Made by a program: the position numbers and the translations under genes. DNA of 64,000 nt from Scytonema tolypothrichoides VB-61278. Its GTDB lineage: Bacteria; Cyanobacteriota; Cyanobacteriia; Cyanobacteriales; Nostocaceae. The stretch covers positions 215,254-279,253 of the forward strand of contig NZ_JXCA02000022.1 of NCBI RefSeq assembly GCF_000828085.3. Reading direction: 5' to 3'. Below the pieces are notes generated by a model. It ran no database searches, was not told the DNA's origin, and saw nothing but the letters and a program-made list of their open reading frames with translations. Below are positions 19,205 through 24,583 of the stretch, one piece after another. Numbering within the stretch: position 1 is the stretch's first letter; every line of letters starts with the position of its first letter.

Positions 19205-19696
19205 ATGGCTAGAATTATTTACGAAACTGAAAATTCCTTAGAAATTACAGAACTCAGAGCAGAAGTTTTGTCAAAACGTAAGTGTGGAGAGGTTTTGTTT
19301 GAAATCCAAAAAATAATATCAGAAGAAACTCTTGAAAGCTCTAAAAATATGACTGAAATTCTTGATTTATTTGTAAGTCAATTAGGATATTCCAGTCTAG
19401 GGTTGCTCTGGAAAGAAGTTAATCAAGAAGAGGCGCAAAAAATCCTAAGTTTTGTTATGACGAAAGATTTGGCTTACTCTGTGCCATTAATGAGCTTAGA
19501 AGAAGCAGAAAACATTATTGTTAAATTATTTGATTTTTTTCCAGGTTATTGCAAATTTTTCACAAATGCGTTATTTCGGAACAATTACTCTGGCATTAGT
19601 GCATGGGATTCAATTACAAAAGCCACATTCGATACAGGTATTATTGTTGTCAGTCATAAACGAATTGGTATCCTCTGGGTGAAAGACGAGGATTAA
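19205..19696 (+). CDS. Hypothetical protein, 163 aa
   Basis: Soluble acidic protein with no signal peptide or membrane segment. The C-terminus has a beta-rich pattern (TKATFDTGIIVVSHKRIGIL, then WVKDED), and the middle is helical. I recognise no family. Size, acidity and position beside a secreted RNase would fit an immunity-like protein, but that is speculation: the next gene is separated by 214 bp and encodes a separately exported protein. Confidence 0.6.
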   Translation: MARIIYETENSLEITELRAEVLSKRKCGEVLFEIQKIISEETLESSKNMTEILDLFVSQLGYSSLGLLWKEVNQEEAQKILSFVMTKDLAYSVPLMSLEEAENIIVKLFDFFPGYCKFFTNALFRNNYSGISAWDSITKATFDTGIIVVSHKRIGILWVKDED

Positions 19697-19910: not shown

Positions 19911-21182
19911 ATGTCTAAGTTAGCATTACCATTGAAGATAGCAGGAGGAGCCATCTTACTGCTTTCCTTTTTTTCATCTAGAGTAAATAGTGTCACAATT
20001 TCAGAGGGATTTGAGAACGGTACCAAAGGCAGTTATGCAGCAGCTGACGTCACCCTGAGTACAGGCGTTTGGAATTTTAATGATGCTTTAATTGGTAATC
20101 TTTCAACGGATGTTAAGAGCGGGACGCAATCTGCTCGCATTCGCAATAACGGCAAAGTGACGATGAAATTTGATCGTACGGGTGCTGGTACAGTTACTAT
20201 CAAACATGCTAAGTTTGGTTCTGATGCTAGTACTACTTGGGAGTTGTGGTGTTCAACCAATAGCGGATCTTCATGGTCAAAAATAGGTTCAACAATTACG
20301 ACAAGCTCTACATCACTTCAAACAGCAACTTTCACTCCTAATCTCTCTGGGACAGTTCGGTGTGAAGTCCGCAAGACTGATGGAACTTCAAACAGAACCA
20401 ATATTGATGACATTGAAATTACTGATTATGGCTCCTCTGGTTCTTCTTCCTCCTTACCTCCCGGTTCTGTACCATTCTTTGACAATATCAACAACCCTGT
20501 CTCTGGTTTAGCTTACGGTAGCCCAGCCGATGTTACACCTCCCGCGCCAGTACCAAACAACTTTGACACAGCAGTGACTAATCTTTGTGGAGCACCTGGT
20601 ACAGTTGTCAGTCGTGCTGGTTTCCAGTCTATGATGCAGAACAATCCTACTGTCTTGGCAAATATCAAGCAATATGTGGGAGGGTCTCTGGAACCAGGTC
20701 GCACCACAGATGCAGCTTTCTTAGAGGACTTGACTGATGTCTGGTTTAATGCACAGGCTTTTGATCATATTTTTTGCGGGGAACCAGTTCAAGGCGGTTC
20801 GATTGGGGGATTGCACTTTGTCGCTCGTTATGTAGAACTTCAGGAAAAGGGTTTAGCCGGACGACTAGACAACAATACATCCAGAGAAGAGGTTGTTCCC
20901 GGTACAATTTACACTATGGGCGTTGTGATGAAAGTTGGTAGTGGTACTGCTCAGTCTTCTATCAAAGGTTATCCCTACACCCTCAACGCTGAAGAGATTC
21001 TATCGAAAGCATCTCTAGGTTACAAGAACAACCCAAATACTACCTCGACTAACACGGTTTGTAATTTGAGCGTAACTGACGAGGGGAAAACATTTACAGC
21101 TGTGTTTGTGAGGAGAGATGGCGGGATTCGCACTTTCTATCCTGATGCTACCCCCAGTGGTAACCCCAATTGTACGCAGTAA
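19911..21182 (+). CDS. Secreted EndoU-like endoribonuclease with N-terminal beta-sandwich
   Basis: A 423-residue exported protein. An N-terminal hydrophobic segment (about 6-26) ending near NSVTIS is a likely signal peptide. Residues 30-172 form a beta-sandwich of the kind attached to extracellular nucleases and adhesins (GTVTIKHAKFGSD, WELWCSTNSGSSWSKIG). After a Ser/Pro-rich linker (175-215), residues 225-423 resemble bacterial EndoU: FDHIFCGE (His286), GGSIGGLHFVARY (His302), then a Lys/Thr-containing strand (VVMKVGSGT) and FTAVFVRRDGGIRTFYP. EndoU enzymes cleave RNA at uridines through two His and a Lys. Cysteines are paired in number, consistent with export. Assignment is by motif memory, not search. 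Confidence 0.72.
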   Translation: MSKLALPLKIAGGAILLLSFFSSRVNSVTISEGFENGTKGSYAAADVTLSTGVWNFNDALIGNLSTDVKSGTQSARIRNNGKVTMKFDRTGAGTVTIKHAKFGSDASTTWELWCSTNSGSSWSKIGSTITTSSTSLQTATFTPNLSGTVRCEVRKTDGTSNRTNIDDIEITDYGSSGSSSSLPPGSVPFFDNINNPVSGLAYGSPADVTPPAPVPNNFDTAVTNLCGAPGTVVSRAGFQSMMQNNPTVLANIKQYVGGSLEPGRTTDAAFLEDLTDVWFNAQAFDHIFCGEPVQGGSIGGLHFVARYVELQEKGLAGRLDNNTSREEVVPGTIYTMGVVMKVGSGTAQSSIKGYPYTLNAEEILSKASLGYKNNPNTTSTNTVCNLSVTDEGKTFTAVFVRRDGGIRTFYPDATPSGNPNCTQ

Positions 21183-21239
21183 TTGTGAAGTCCGGTTAAT
21201 AATCGGCTATCTATAAATTCCTACTCCTGCATCCATTCC

Positions 21240-21305
21240 AAAAAAAATAAAAGCCGTGGAACATTCAGTTTCACGGCTCTTAATGTGGTGTGAGGAGCTA
21301 AACTT
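21240..21305 (-). ncRNA. Putative small RNA, Yfr1-like core plus terminator (copy 1)
   Basis: On the minus strand a possible -10 box TATGAT (21317-21312) is followed by an unpaired-looking stretch holding CTCCTCACAC (21297-21288), ten of eleven bases of the ultraconserved Yfr1 motif. Next comes a hairpin AGCCGTG/CACGGCT (21278-21252) and a long T-run (21251-21240), a textbook rho-independent terminator. A 5' stem-loop as in classical Yfr1 is not obvious. Yfr1 normally lies near trxA/guaB, which are not here. Confidence 0.55.
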
Positions 21306-21460
21306 TATATCATCATAATGGTAACTGAAGAGCATAAACACGCTCGTAACGATTTTGGTAACAAAAATTTTTCCGCCGGTATTCACAACCTTTCTCGTCT
21401 CTGGGAACTAATACCCCTGCGTATCATCCTCACATTGGGTGAGTTTCTGTTTACATTCCA

Positions 21461-21532
21461 TAAAAAAATAAATAACCGTGGAAGCACCAGATGAATCCAC
21501 GGCTATAAATGTGGTGTGAGGAGACTTAACTT
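21461..21532 (-). ncRNA. Putative small RNA, Yfr1-like core plus terminator (copy 2)
   Basis: Same design as copy 1, 226 bp away: TATGAT (21544-21539), CTCCTCACAC (21523-21514), hairpin CCGTGGA/TCCACGG (21502-21476) and T-run (21475-21461). The loop and upstream sequence differ, but core, stem and spacing are kept. The upstream words GTTACCAAAA and GTTACGAGCG are shared with copy 1, so promoter DNA was duplicated too. Confidence 0.55.
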
Positions 21533-21654
21533 AGGATCATCATAAACTTATTCGAGTCTTGGTAAGGCGCTCGTAACAGTTTTGGTAACGAGATTATTTT
21601 GAAGCTGCACAAATCAGTTGCTCAAGCCTTTCCCAGACAATCATGCAAGCAATT

Positions 21655-22641
21655 TCACACCAAAGCGCCACCACAGCTAGAACCAGTACCAGCTGTACAG
21701 CCATAACAATAAGCTGCTGTTTGTACTTCATCTATCAAGTCCAAAGAACCAGCTTCTAACAACTTGGCGACTGTCAGGTTTTCCCCGTCGCGAGTTTTTG
21801 CAGGTAAATTCATCATTTGGTTGAAGTCGCAGTCATACACATTACCCAGATAATCAATGGAAATTTCATCGAGACACATCAGATGTTCAACTGTACCAGC
21901 ATTGAAGTGAGATTCTAAAAACTGCAAATAAGGAGCATAAAGTTTCTTTCTTTCTAAAGACAGTTTTGTTCTCCCAACTGGTAAGTTGGTAATCGTAAAT
22001 AGATTGTTAAAACTAATACCAAAATGTTCTTGCAAATATTGCTTGTAATCTCTTTCCAGCTTTGTTTGGTCTGGAGTTAGGGAAAATTTCTCATCTTTCG
22101 GTAATTGTGGATTGTAAACTAAATCCACGATTAAATCTGCTTCTTTCCCATAATCTAGTTGGTTCAGCCATTGCAGTGCTTTAATGGAACCATCATACAC
22201 GCCAGCACCGCGCATTTTATCCACATTATCTGACAAATAGCAGGGCAGAGAAGCAACAACTCTAACTTTGTGTTTAGCAAAATATTCTGGCAAATCATCA
22301 AATCCATCTTCAAAAAAGATGGTCAAATTAGAACGGACAATGACTTGTTTTCCTGTTGTTCTTGCTGCTTCTACCAGTGGTTTGAACCCATAATTCATTT
22401 CTGGTGCACCTCCAGTCAAATCAACAATTTTAATTTGAGAAAATTTATGAATTATCTCAATTAATTGTTGGCAGATTTCAGGAGAAAGTTCTTCTGTGCG
22501 TTTTGGTCCTGCTTCTACATGACAATGGTTACAAGCAAGGTTGCAGCGCTTACCTAGGTTAATTTGTAAAACAGTGATTTCTTTTTTAGTTAAAGGAGAG
22601 GTGAGTTTTTGTTTGAAAGGTGTGATTGCTGTTTGAATCAT
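21655..22641 (-). CDS. arsS: Arsenosugar biosynthesis radical SAM protein
   Basis: A 328-residue radical SAM enzyme that transfers a deoxyadenosyl group to dimethylarsenite in arsenosugar synthesis. The [4Fe-4S]/SAM motif CNLACNHC (Cys33, Cys37, Cys40) is intact. The C-terminus is Cys-rich (YDCDFNQMMN, AAYCYGCTAGTGSSCGG), as in the ArsS (radical SAM/Cys-rich) family. I start at ATG 22639-22641 (MIQTAITPFKQKL); the frame is open 28 codons further up, through repeat DNA. It lies 186 bp downstream of arsM on the same strand, so the two probably form one unit. Confidence 0.9.
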   Translation of the reverse strand: MIQTAITPFKQKLTSPLTKKEITVLQINLGKRCNLACNHCHVEAGPKRTEELSPEICQQLIEIIHKFSQIKIVDLTGGAPEMNYGFKPLVEAARTTGKQVIVRSNLTIFFEDGFDDLPEYFAKHKVRVVASLPCYLSDNVDKMRGAGVYDGSIKALQWLNQLDYGKEADLIVDLVYNPQLPKDEKFSLTPDQTKLERDYKQYLQEHFGISFNNLFTITNLPVGRTKLSLERKKLYAPYLQFLESHFNAGTVEHLMCLDEISIDYLGNVYDCDFNQMMNLPAKTRDGENLTVAKLLEAGSLDLIDEVQTAAYCYGCTAGTGSSCGGALV

Positions 22642-22827
22642 TGTCTCATTTATATAGATGCAAAATAAAAGATGTGTCTTTTTTAGATTTCTCTCGTTCC
22701 CATGCAGAGAATGGAAATGCCTCATTTGAGGCTCTGCCTCTCAATGATTATATTGAAGCAGCAGCCCACAGTTATGCATTCCTTGCCTGAGGCAAAGAAC
22801 GAGGAACGAGAAATTTGGTTGAACGAC
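22642..22827. repeat. arsM-arsS spacer with palindromic repeat
   Basis: Contains a compact inverted repeat around 22680-22745 (GTTCCCATGCAGAGAATGG, then GAGGCTCTGCCTC). It separates two genes expected to work together; whether it ends transcription is not clear. Confidence 0.5.
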
Positions 22828-23796
22828 TTAACAACATCCGCCGCCGTTATAATGCCAAGTTGAATCAGTCATCATTATTTGCTCTGGCATTAAAGCTGCA
22901 AGTTTTGCGGCAGTTTTATCACACACTGATGCTGGAATTCCACGCTGAAGAATATGACCAGCATCATCATCAAAAAATGGTTCATAACCAGTATAAATTG
23001 CGGTTTTTCCTGTGAACACACAAGCCCCATCTTCAGGAATGATAACTTTGAAAGCCACAGAATCTAAACTTTCTAAAAGAAGATTCTCTTCTATGTCATA
23101 AGTTTGGGTATCTAACAGGCGATAGGGGCGACGGGCGCGAATTTCTACTTGCCCAAAACCAACATTTATAATACGCTGAATATACTGTTCATAAGTGAGT
23201 GCGCCTGATAAACACATTGCTCGCAGCTGCTCATCTTTTTGCAGATGTTGTGGAATGGGACGAGTCGCAATTGGGTCACTCATCTGCAATTTTCCACCTG
23301 GTTTTAACACCCGGTATGCTTCTTGCAAAGCACGGGTTAAATCTTCTGGTTCAAAGATATTGAAAAGGCAATTTTGCGCTACGATATCAACAGAATCATC
23401 ACCAACAGGTAAGTTAAAGGCATCGCCTTCGCCAATTTCTACAAAACTGGTGTCAAACCAGGGGTTTTCTTGAGCAGCAATTTCCAAGTTGCGTGCTGCT
23501 GCTTGACGCATTTCTGGTACTGGATCAACAGCAATAACAGCACCAGAACGCTGAGAAAAATAGGCAAATTGCAAAGCTTCTAAACCACCACCAACTCCAA
23601 CATACAGTACTGTGGGTTGATTTCCAAGTTCGGTGGGATGAACAGTCGTCCCGCAACCATAGTTCATTTCCTGCATTTTCCGAGGAATTTTCAACCCTGG
23701 TAATTGCAAGGGTGTGCTTTGCACACAACACAGTCCGACTTGCGGTGTTTGGGCGACTTCACTATAAAACTGCGCCGCTGTCTCAAGATAACTCAT
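22828..23796 (-). CDS. arsM: Arsenite S-adenosylmethionine methyltransferase (arsenosugar type)
   Basis: A 322-residue SAM-dependent methyltransferase. The Rossmann motif VLYVGVGGGLEALQFA binds SAM. Conserved arsenic-binding cysteines are likely Cys23/Cys24 (VGLCCVQS) and Cys48 (MNYGCGTTV), and the protein ends in a Cys-Cys pair (GGGCC). This Cys-Cys tail and the neighbouring arsS identify the arsenosugar-biosynthesis subgroup. It methylates arsenite, supplying the ArsS substrate. No arsR, arsB or arsC is seen nearby. Confidence 0.9.
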   Translation of the reverse strand: MSYLETAAQFYSEVAQTPQVGLCCVQSTPLQLPGLKIPRKMQEMNYGCGTTVHPTELGNQPTVLYVGVGGGLEALQFAYFSQRSGAVIAVDPVPEMRQAAARNLEIAAQENPWFDTSFVEIGEGDAFNLPVGDDSVDIVAQNCLFNIFEPEDLTRALQEAYRVLKPGGKLQMSDPIATRPIPQHLQKDEQLRAMCLSGALTYEQYIQRIINVGFGQVEIRARRPYRLLDTQTYDIEENLLLESLDSVAFKVIIPEDGACVFTGKTAIYTGYEPFFDDDAGHILQRGIPASVCDKTAAKLAALMPEQIMMTDSTWHYNGGGCC

Positions 23797-23908: not shown

Positions 23909-24583
23909 TTATTCTCGCAGTGCGTAACCTACTCCACGTACAGTTTGAATGAGACGCTTTTCCTCATTCGCCTCCAATTTCAGGCGCAAGTAGCGAATGT
24001 AAACCTCAATGATGTTGGAGTCGCCCATAAAGTCGTAACCCCAGACTTCTTCGAGAATGCGATCGCGCGTAATAACCTGTCGTGGATGGATGAGTAAATA
24101 CTCCAGTAAATCAAACTCTTTGGCGGTTAACTCAACTAAGCGCGTCCCCCGAAAAACTTCCCGCGTGCGACGGTTTAAACTCAAGTTTCCAAATTGCAAG
24201 ATATCGGTGTTGGCTTCTTGCGTTCGTCGCAAGTGTGCGCGGACTCTGGCTAACAACTCTTCGACGCTAAAAGGTTTCACAACATAATCATCCGCACCAG
24301 CGTCTAAACCAGCAACGCGATCGCTCACCTCATCTTTTGCCGTTAACAATATAATGGGTACCATGACCCCAGTGCTTCGTAAACGTCGGCAAATTTCTAA
24401 CCCAGATAAACCAGGTAACATCCAGTCCAATATCACTAAATCTGGATGAGACTCTCGTGCAGTCGTCAGTCCTGTTAACCCATCGTGTGCAACACTAACT
24501 TTATAACCCTCATAACTCAGTTCCAATTCTACAAATCGAGCGAGTTTAACTTCATCTTCAACAAGTAAAATATGCGCTGTCAT
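23909..24583 (-). CDS. OmpR/PhoB-family response regulator
   Basis: A 224-residue two-domain transcription factor. The receiver domain has acidic pocket Glu9-Asp10, phospho-acceptor Asp53 in [10 protein letters not shown], Thr81 and Lys103 in VVKPF. The C-terminal winged helix (about 130-222) includes [13 protein letters not shown] and [11 protein letters not shown]. Target genes unknown. No kinase is directly adjacent on the same strand; a HAMP-type kinase of the usual partner class lies 3 kb away, and a GAF kinase is divergent across 205 bp. Confidence 0.93.

Follow-up and report, generated by a model that had tools for sequence, protein, structure and literature searches.

Downstream of arsS, Scytonema tolypothrichoides VB-61278 probably carries two separate trans-acting small RNA genes, units A and B, that use the seed of the cyanobacterial RNA Yfr1 and are buffered by Yfr2, a reading to which we assign a probability of about 0.7. 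It rests on sequence, predicted structure, conservation, synteny and complementarity, from which we infer transcription, target repression, buffering by Yfr2 and regulation. As we picture them, A and B would be separate, paralogous genes, both equipped with a promoter and an intrinsic terminator of their own and each giving an RNA of ~65-72 nt whose unpaired 5' tail would show CUCCUCACACC, the seed of Yfr1. Acting most likely in trans, these RNAs would pair through the seed with GGUGUGAGGAG-like sequences at ribosome-binding sites and would mostly lower translation, as Yfr1 does; they would in turn be bound and neutralised by the genome's own Yfr2 (Cyano-1) RNAs, in which the exact complement of the seed is present. 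A and B would add Yfr1-type activity from other promoters, marked by GTTAC direct repeats.

Coordinates are those of the window, the whole stretch of 64,000 nucleotides that was analysed. As originally predicted, two units with a motif spacing of 226 bp lie on the minus strand downstream of arsS, and in each a TATGAT box comes first, then an unpaired CTCCTCACACCACA tail and finally a GC stem with a T-run behind it; these coordinates were confirmed, and CTCCTCACACCACATT stands between box and stem in both units. Unit A (21461..21532), a predicted small RNA of ~71-72 nt delimited by sequence, fold and A-type conservation, would run from a 5' end near 21532/21531 to the end of its T-run near 21461. 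Its seed CTCCTCACAC occupies 21514..21523 in the unpaired 5' tail (mean unpaired probability 0.949), and the predicted folds place a terminator-like stem at 21472..21506, before a T-run to 21461. The -10-like TATGAT box lies at 21539..21544 and the direct-repeat element GTTACCAAAACTGTTACGAGCG at 21568..21589. Unit B (21240..21305), predicted on the same grounds and B-type conservation to give a small RNA of ~65 nt, would begin near 21305/21304 and end with its T-run near 21240. It bears the same seed at 21288..21297 in its unpaired 5' tail (mean unpaired probability 0.973), a terminator-like stem at 21248..21282 in the predicted folds with a T-run to 21240, a -10-like TATGAT box at 21312..21317 and the direct-repeat element GTTACCAAAATCGTTACGAGCG at 21341..21362. 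All these features are on the minus strand. Pairwise alignment of A and B shows shared stretches with a mean column identity of 78%. A small ORF within the units was set aside by eye, RNA A having no ATG and RNA B a single one, in the loop.

Unit A folds at a predicted -18.1 kcal/mol (z -3.96) and unit B at -18.2 kcal/mol (z -4.67), and none of 200 shuffles equalled either value. The prediction gives A and B a 3' stem only, in line with the 5' stem that had been described as missing, and the motif lies in an open 5' tail. Across the 7.9-Mb host genome there are 17 copies of the seed CTCCTCACAC versus 5 of the reversed pattern. CTCCTCACACCAC has 4 exact occurrences in the whole genome versus 0 for its reversal, these being Yfr1, units A and B and one member of a third class, C. 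Taken together, motif counts above those of the reversed patterns and folds better than shuffles place the units beyond chance. The base preceding the seed is U in A, G or A in B, A in Yfr1 and G in C, the U of A being so by construction because the types were assigned from the two bases preceding the motif. The class C RNA (L002; C2:45434-45446, minus strand) has a hairpin-like 5' part, GCAAACATTCAGTTTG, followed by CTCCTCACACCACAC and a terminator stem. Class C-like units were recognised by eye at at least 12 further loci (e.g., L036, L037, L061, L064 and L103).

A likely partner of these RNAs is Yfr2/Cyano-1 (RF01701), whose motif GTGTGAGGAG is opposite to the seed and exactly complementary to it; Yfr2 is not homologous to A and B, though here, too, two copies stand in tandem. 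Three Cyano-1/Yfr2-like RNAs of the genome contain the exact complement of the 10-nt seed; they score 52.6, 45.2 and 36.7 bits (cut-off 41). The first two stand in tandem, 160 bp apart, on the minus strand at C1:1077415-1077650 (L007), and the third, below the cut-off, lies at C2:668954. Among the 17 exact seed sites genome-wide, only 3 non-sRNA ones precede a start codon. GTGTGAGGAG is found 4 nt ahead of the start codon of an LCP-family transferase (L014), 10 nt ahead of that of an iron uptake porin (L020, NF033921) and 12 nt ahead of that of a glycosyltransferase (L012). With these six partners (3 RNAs and 3 mRNA sites), the 5' tails form predicted duplexes of -19.4 to -24.3 kcal/mol, values reached by 0-5 of 300 partners after single-base shuffling. 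Full-length duplex energies, in which internal stems are ignored, are for most pairs no better than with shuffled partners. According to the part of PMC6974561 that was available, Yfr1 of Nostoc 7120 is bound by Yfr2 and lowered 10 of 11 tested targets via the motif, several of them with cell-wall functions; the available part of PMC6778093 gives two porins as Yfr1 targets in Prochlorococcus. The porin, the LCP transferase and the glycosyltransferase could be targets of Yfr1 too, and every putative target site might serve Yfr1 itself, a point against our reading.

The same complementarity would also suit a role in which A and B act mainly as decoys, titrating Yfr2 from Yfr1 and leaving mRNAs untouched. 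The seed is the exact complement of a sequence in the Cyano-1/Yfr2-like RNAs, the tail energies with these RNAs match those with the mRNA sites, and Yfr2 counteracts Yfr1 according to the portion of PMC6778093 consulted. The ribosome-binding sites, however, fit the same seed equally well, and we regard a mainly decoy function as improbable.

Both types keep a promoter-like box ahead of the motif. TAWNAT precedes it in 56 of 57 A units (0.138 in shuffles) and in 81 of 84 B units (0.145 in shuffles), mostly at a nearly fixed distance of 20-21 nt. The upstream words that the original prediction had noted as shared do recur, as GTTACCAAAAyyGTTACGAGCG at 21589-21568 and 21362-21341. Genome-wide, the 19-mer GTTACCAAAANNGTTACGA is exact only upstream of A and B, with 7 more sites at 2 mismatches, and the direct repeat GTWAC-N7-GWTAC is found upstream of 75/84 B units and 18/57 A units. 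A consensus scan of 21183-21654 gave neither a -35 box nor a promoter of the sigma-70 type, which counts against our reading, and a promoter of that type was discarded for this segment; the same scan did not report the terminators of A and B, both of which have interrupted stems.

Conservation was followed with a covariance model, R1, built from 38 units. Both window units are among these, so that their own scores (77.6 bits for A and 74.0 for B) are by construction; the next match in the genome reaches 25.4 bits. At E<=0.01, R1 matches 182 of the 217 family genomes (175 of the 206 near-complete ones) and is without a match in 35. Elsewhere in the order, 7 genomes reach 44.0-53.4 bits among the matches listed, the only ones outside the family that were trusted; in the 4 inspected (L266-L269), GTTAC[GC]AG is accompanied by a [GC]TTAA stretch and by a CCGTG stem. 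Beyond the order, the highest R1 score among the matches listed is a noise-like 35.3 bits. The genome sets of these R1 surveys overlap with one another. A pattern scan of genome contigs gave at least 80 loci, all of which were used (92 stretches were announced). The pattern fixed AGTTAA and CCACA besides the motif, and conservation of these letters is by construction because the units were found through them. The titles of the 80 loci name Nostoc, Anabaena, Dolichospermum, Calothrix, Fischerella, Scytonema, Tolypothrix, Brasilonema, Mastigocoleus and others, which we take to be all Nostocales. Two or more same-strand R1 units of at least 30 bits stand within 1.25 kb at 44 of the 80 loci, and at 39 of them when at least 44 bits are demanded.

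The anatomy was studied after removal of any unit with the 5' stem word of Yfr1, and 3 of the remaining 144 (L056, L258 and L269) were left out as untyped. The resulting set holds 141 distinct units from 104 loci, 57 of type A and 84 of type B. Of these 141 units, 139 have a nearest neighbour of their own type, a result that, like the synteny, does not follow by construction from the A/B typing. Judged by sequence, A and B are two paralogous, separately conserved orthologous groups. Their duplication looks old, since the A and B units at a single locus resemble each other less (0.541) than do A-A (0.617) or B-B (0.668) pairs from different genomes. In alignment A2, 95.5% of the stem cells keep their pairing and 19 show changes on both sides, and covariation amounts to 0.247 versus 0.174 in shuffles (0/500 as high) and at most 0.141 when the stem is slid. 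The 3 stem pairs with changes on both sides are not unusual (54/500 shuffles as high), nor do the 10 pair types stand out (273/500). A2 omits the L074 unit, through the stem filter, and a degenerate copy (CTTCTCACAT) at L107. Behind arsS on the minus strand at L107, this decayed A-type copy with CTTCTCACATTACC lies alongside an intact B. Three consecutive R1 matches (65.0, 36.2 and 58.6 bits) in a Scytonematopsis contorta MAG (L175:3076-3512) perhaps represent a triplicated array.

The upstream neighbour of A is arsS (21655..22725, minus strand), which encodes an arsenosugar biosynthesis radical SAM protein (TIGR04167, 417.7 bits, cut-off 300), and the locus is indeed, as had been proposed, other than that of Yfr1. 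On the same strand, arsS is preceded by arsM (22828..23796), coding for an arsenosugar-type arsenite methyltransferase (NF038099, 577.9 bits, cut-off 400). An OmpR-type response regulator gene adjoins arsM (23909-24583, minus strand; best NCBIfam NblR at 283.6 bits, below the cut-off of 300); such a gene is found near arsM in many relatives and is a possible candidate regulator. Upstream on the same strand, arsS is found at 35 of the 36 distinct A units having 1.5 kb of upstream DNA and at 32 of the 46 distinct B units with enough flank. Of 35 B units, 10 are followed within 4 kb by a gene like the quinone oxidoreductase of the window, which makes arsM-arsS-A-B-oxidoreductase a possible ancestral order. 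In the window, unit B and the oxidoreductase gene are separated by two plus-strand ORFs (19911-21182 and 19205-19696) that have no NCBIfam match; both are also present in a relative (L068) at 96% and 88% identity.

This linkage, together with the stem and T-run that end both units, is what one would expect if A and B were merely terminators or arsS 3'-UTR ends with no role of their own, and, given a distance of 66-264 bp between arsS and A at the measured loci, A could be just the arsS terminator. Yet a conserved box and seed stand ahead of the stem, and a second unit comes after the first. Moreover, arsS is absent upstream of 14 of the 46 B units, which argues that B is not merely the end of an arsS mRNA. 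Terminators repeated at many unrelated genes, raised in the original prediction as a counter-argument, were not seen either, R1 exceeding 26 bits only at A and B and finding no third copy above that score in the genome. We consider a terminator-only role distinctly improbable.

If A and B are small RNA genes, as we favour, their interest lies in the Yfr1 regulon. Yfr1 is abundant and changes little, and how its regulon is tuned has for this reason been posed as an open question (PMC6974561, in the part available). Separately promoted, conserved RNAs with the Yfr1 seed would be a natural tuning knob for this regulon; the arsS linkage suggests conditions worth testing, and R1 can be used for annotating A/B-type units. 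A broader and, as a whole, rather unlikely picture is that heterocystous cyanobacteria would keep a set of same-seed sRNAs sharing CUCCUCACAC, with a steady Yfr1 and conditional A, B and C (L002), all drained by Yfr2. The base before the seed and the promoter would then set partner and timing, and the arsM-arsS-tied A would couple arsenosugar or arsenic/phosphate status to porin and cell-envelope control.

The original prediction spoke of a duplicated Yfr1-like family. A duplicated family with the Yfr1 motif, in two groups of its own, stood up to analysis; a duplicated Yfr1 did not, the units having no match to RF01116 at gathering and none even at E<=10. A canonical Yfr1, which had been expected near trxA, is found elsewhere in the same genome (RF01116, 62.1 bits), flanked by ORFs that look, on inspection by eye, like guaB and trxA. 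In the accessible part of PMC2190773, Yfr1 has two stem-loops flanking an unpaired stretch of 16-20 nt and lies near guaB or trxA in most strains. A and B share with it the unpaired seed CUCCUCACAC, the 3' terminator stem and the small size, but lack the 5' stem-loop and occur as two copies behind arsS. In place of the ultraconserved ACUCCUCACAC of Yfr1, A has UCUCCUCACAC and B GCUCCUCACAC; the first A is missing from the window units, as had been noted, yet present in 26 of the 84 B-type orthologs. With no RF01116 match, no 5' stem, an incomplete ACUCCUCACAC and a different locus, A and B were rejected as members of Yfr1. That they are true Yfr1 duplicates which lost the 5' stem is very improbable: seed, CCACA and terminator stem are in common, but RF01116 finds no match, a canonical Yfr1 is present, and the two kinds differ in promoter, in 5' end and in stem sequence, with too little shared sequence beyond the seed to settle descent.

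Extra sRNAs with the Yfr1 motif are, as a kind, already published: the portion of PMC6778093 available lists Yfr10, Syr5, Yfr104 and, in Nostoc 7120, TSS 2515196r and 3750139f, with neither synteny nor sequence outside the motif conserved, and describes the motif of Yfr10 as lying in a loop atop a stem. Either of the two Nostoc 7120 RNAs, which carry the Yfr1 motif like A and B, could be orthologous to A or B. From gene numbering, we estimate that TSS 3750139f may lie near alr3095. An arsM qPCR primer printed in PMC5258700 (source seen in part), used as a pattern, matched 4 of the 217 genomes (L246, L247, L251 and L253), and neither arsM nor arsS of the kind present in the window turned up in the 9-kb flanks in L251 and L253. 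In the literature searched, which covers few subscription papers, no description of an arsS-linked pair of such RNAs was found. As predicted small RNAs with the CUCCUCACAC core in a genome whose Yfr1 lies elsewhere, A and B fit the term Yfr10-like in a loose sense; in the strict Prochlorococcus sense they do not, their motif lying in an open 5' tail instead of a loop on a stem. Whereas Yfr10 and its kin have no conserved synteny in the available part of PMC6778093, A keeps its place behind arsS, and A and B are paired. The conservation of A and B in many heterocyst-forming cyanobacteria hints at a group of regulators that use a common seed.
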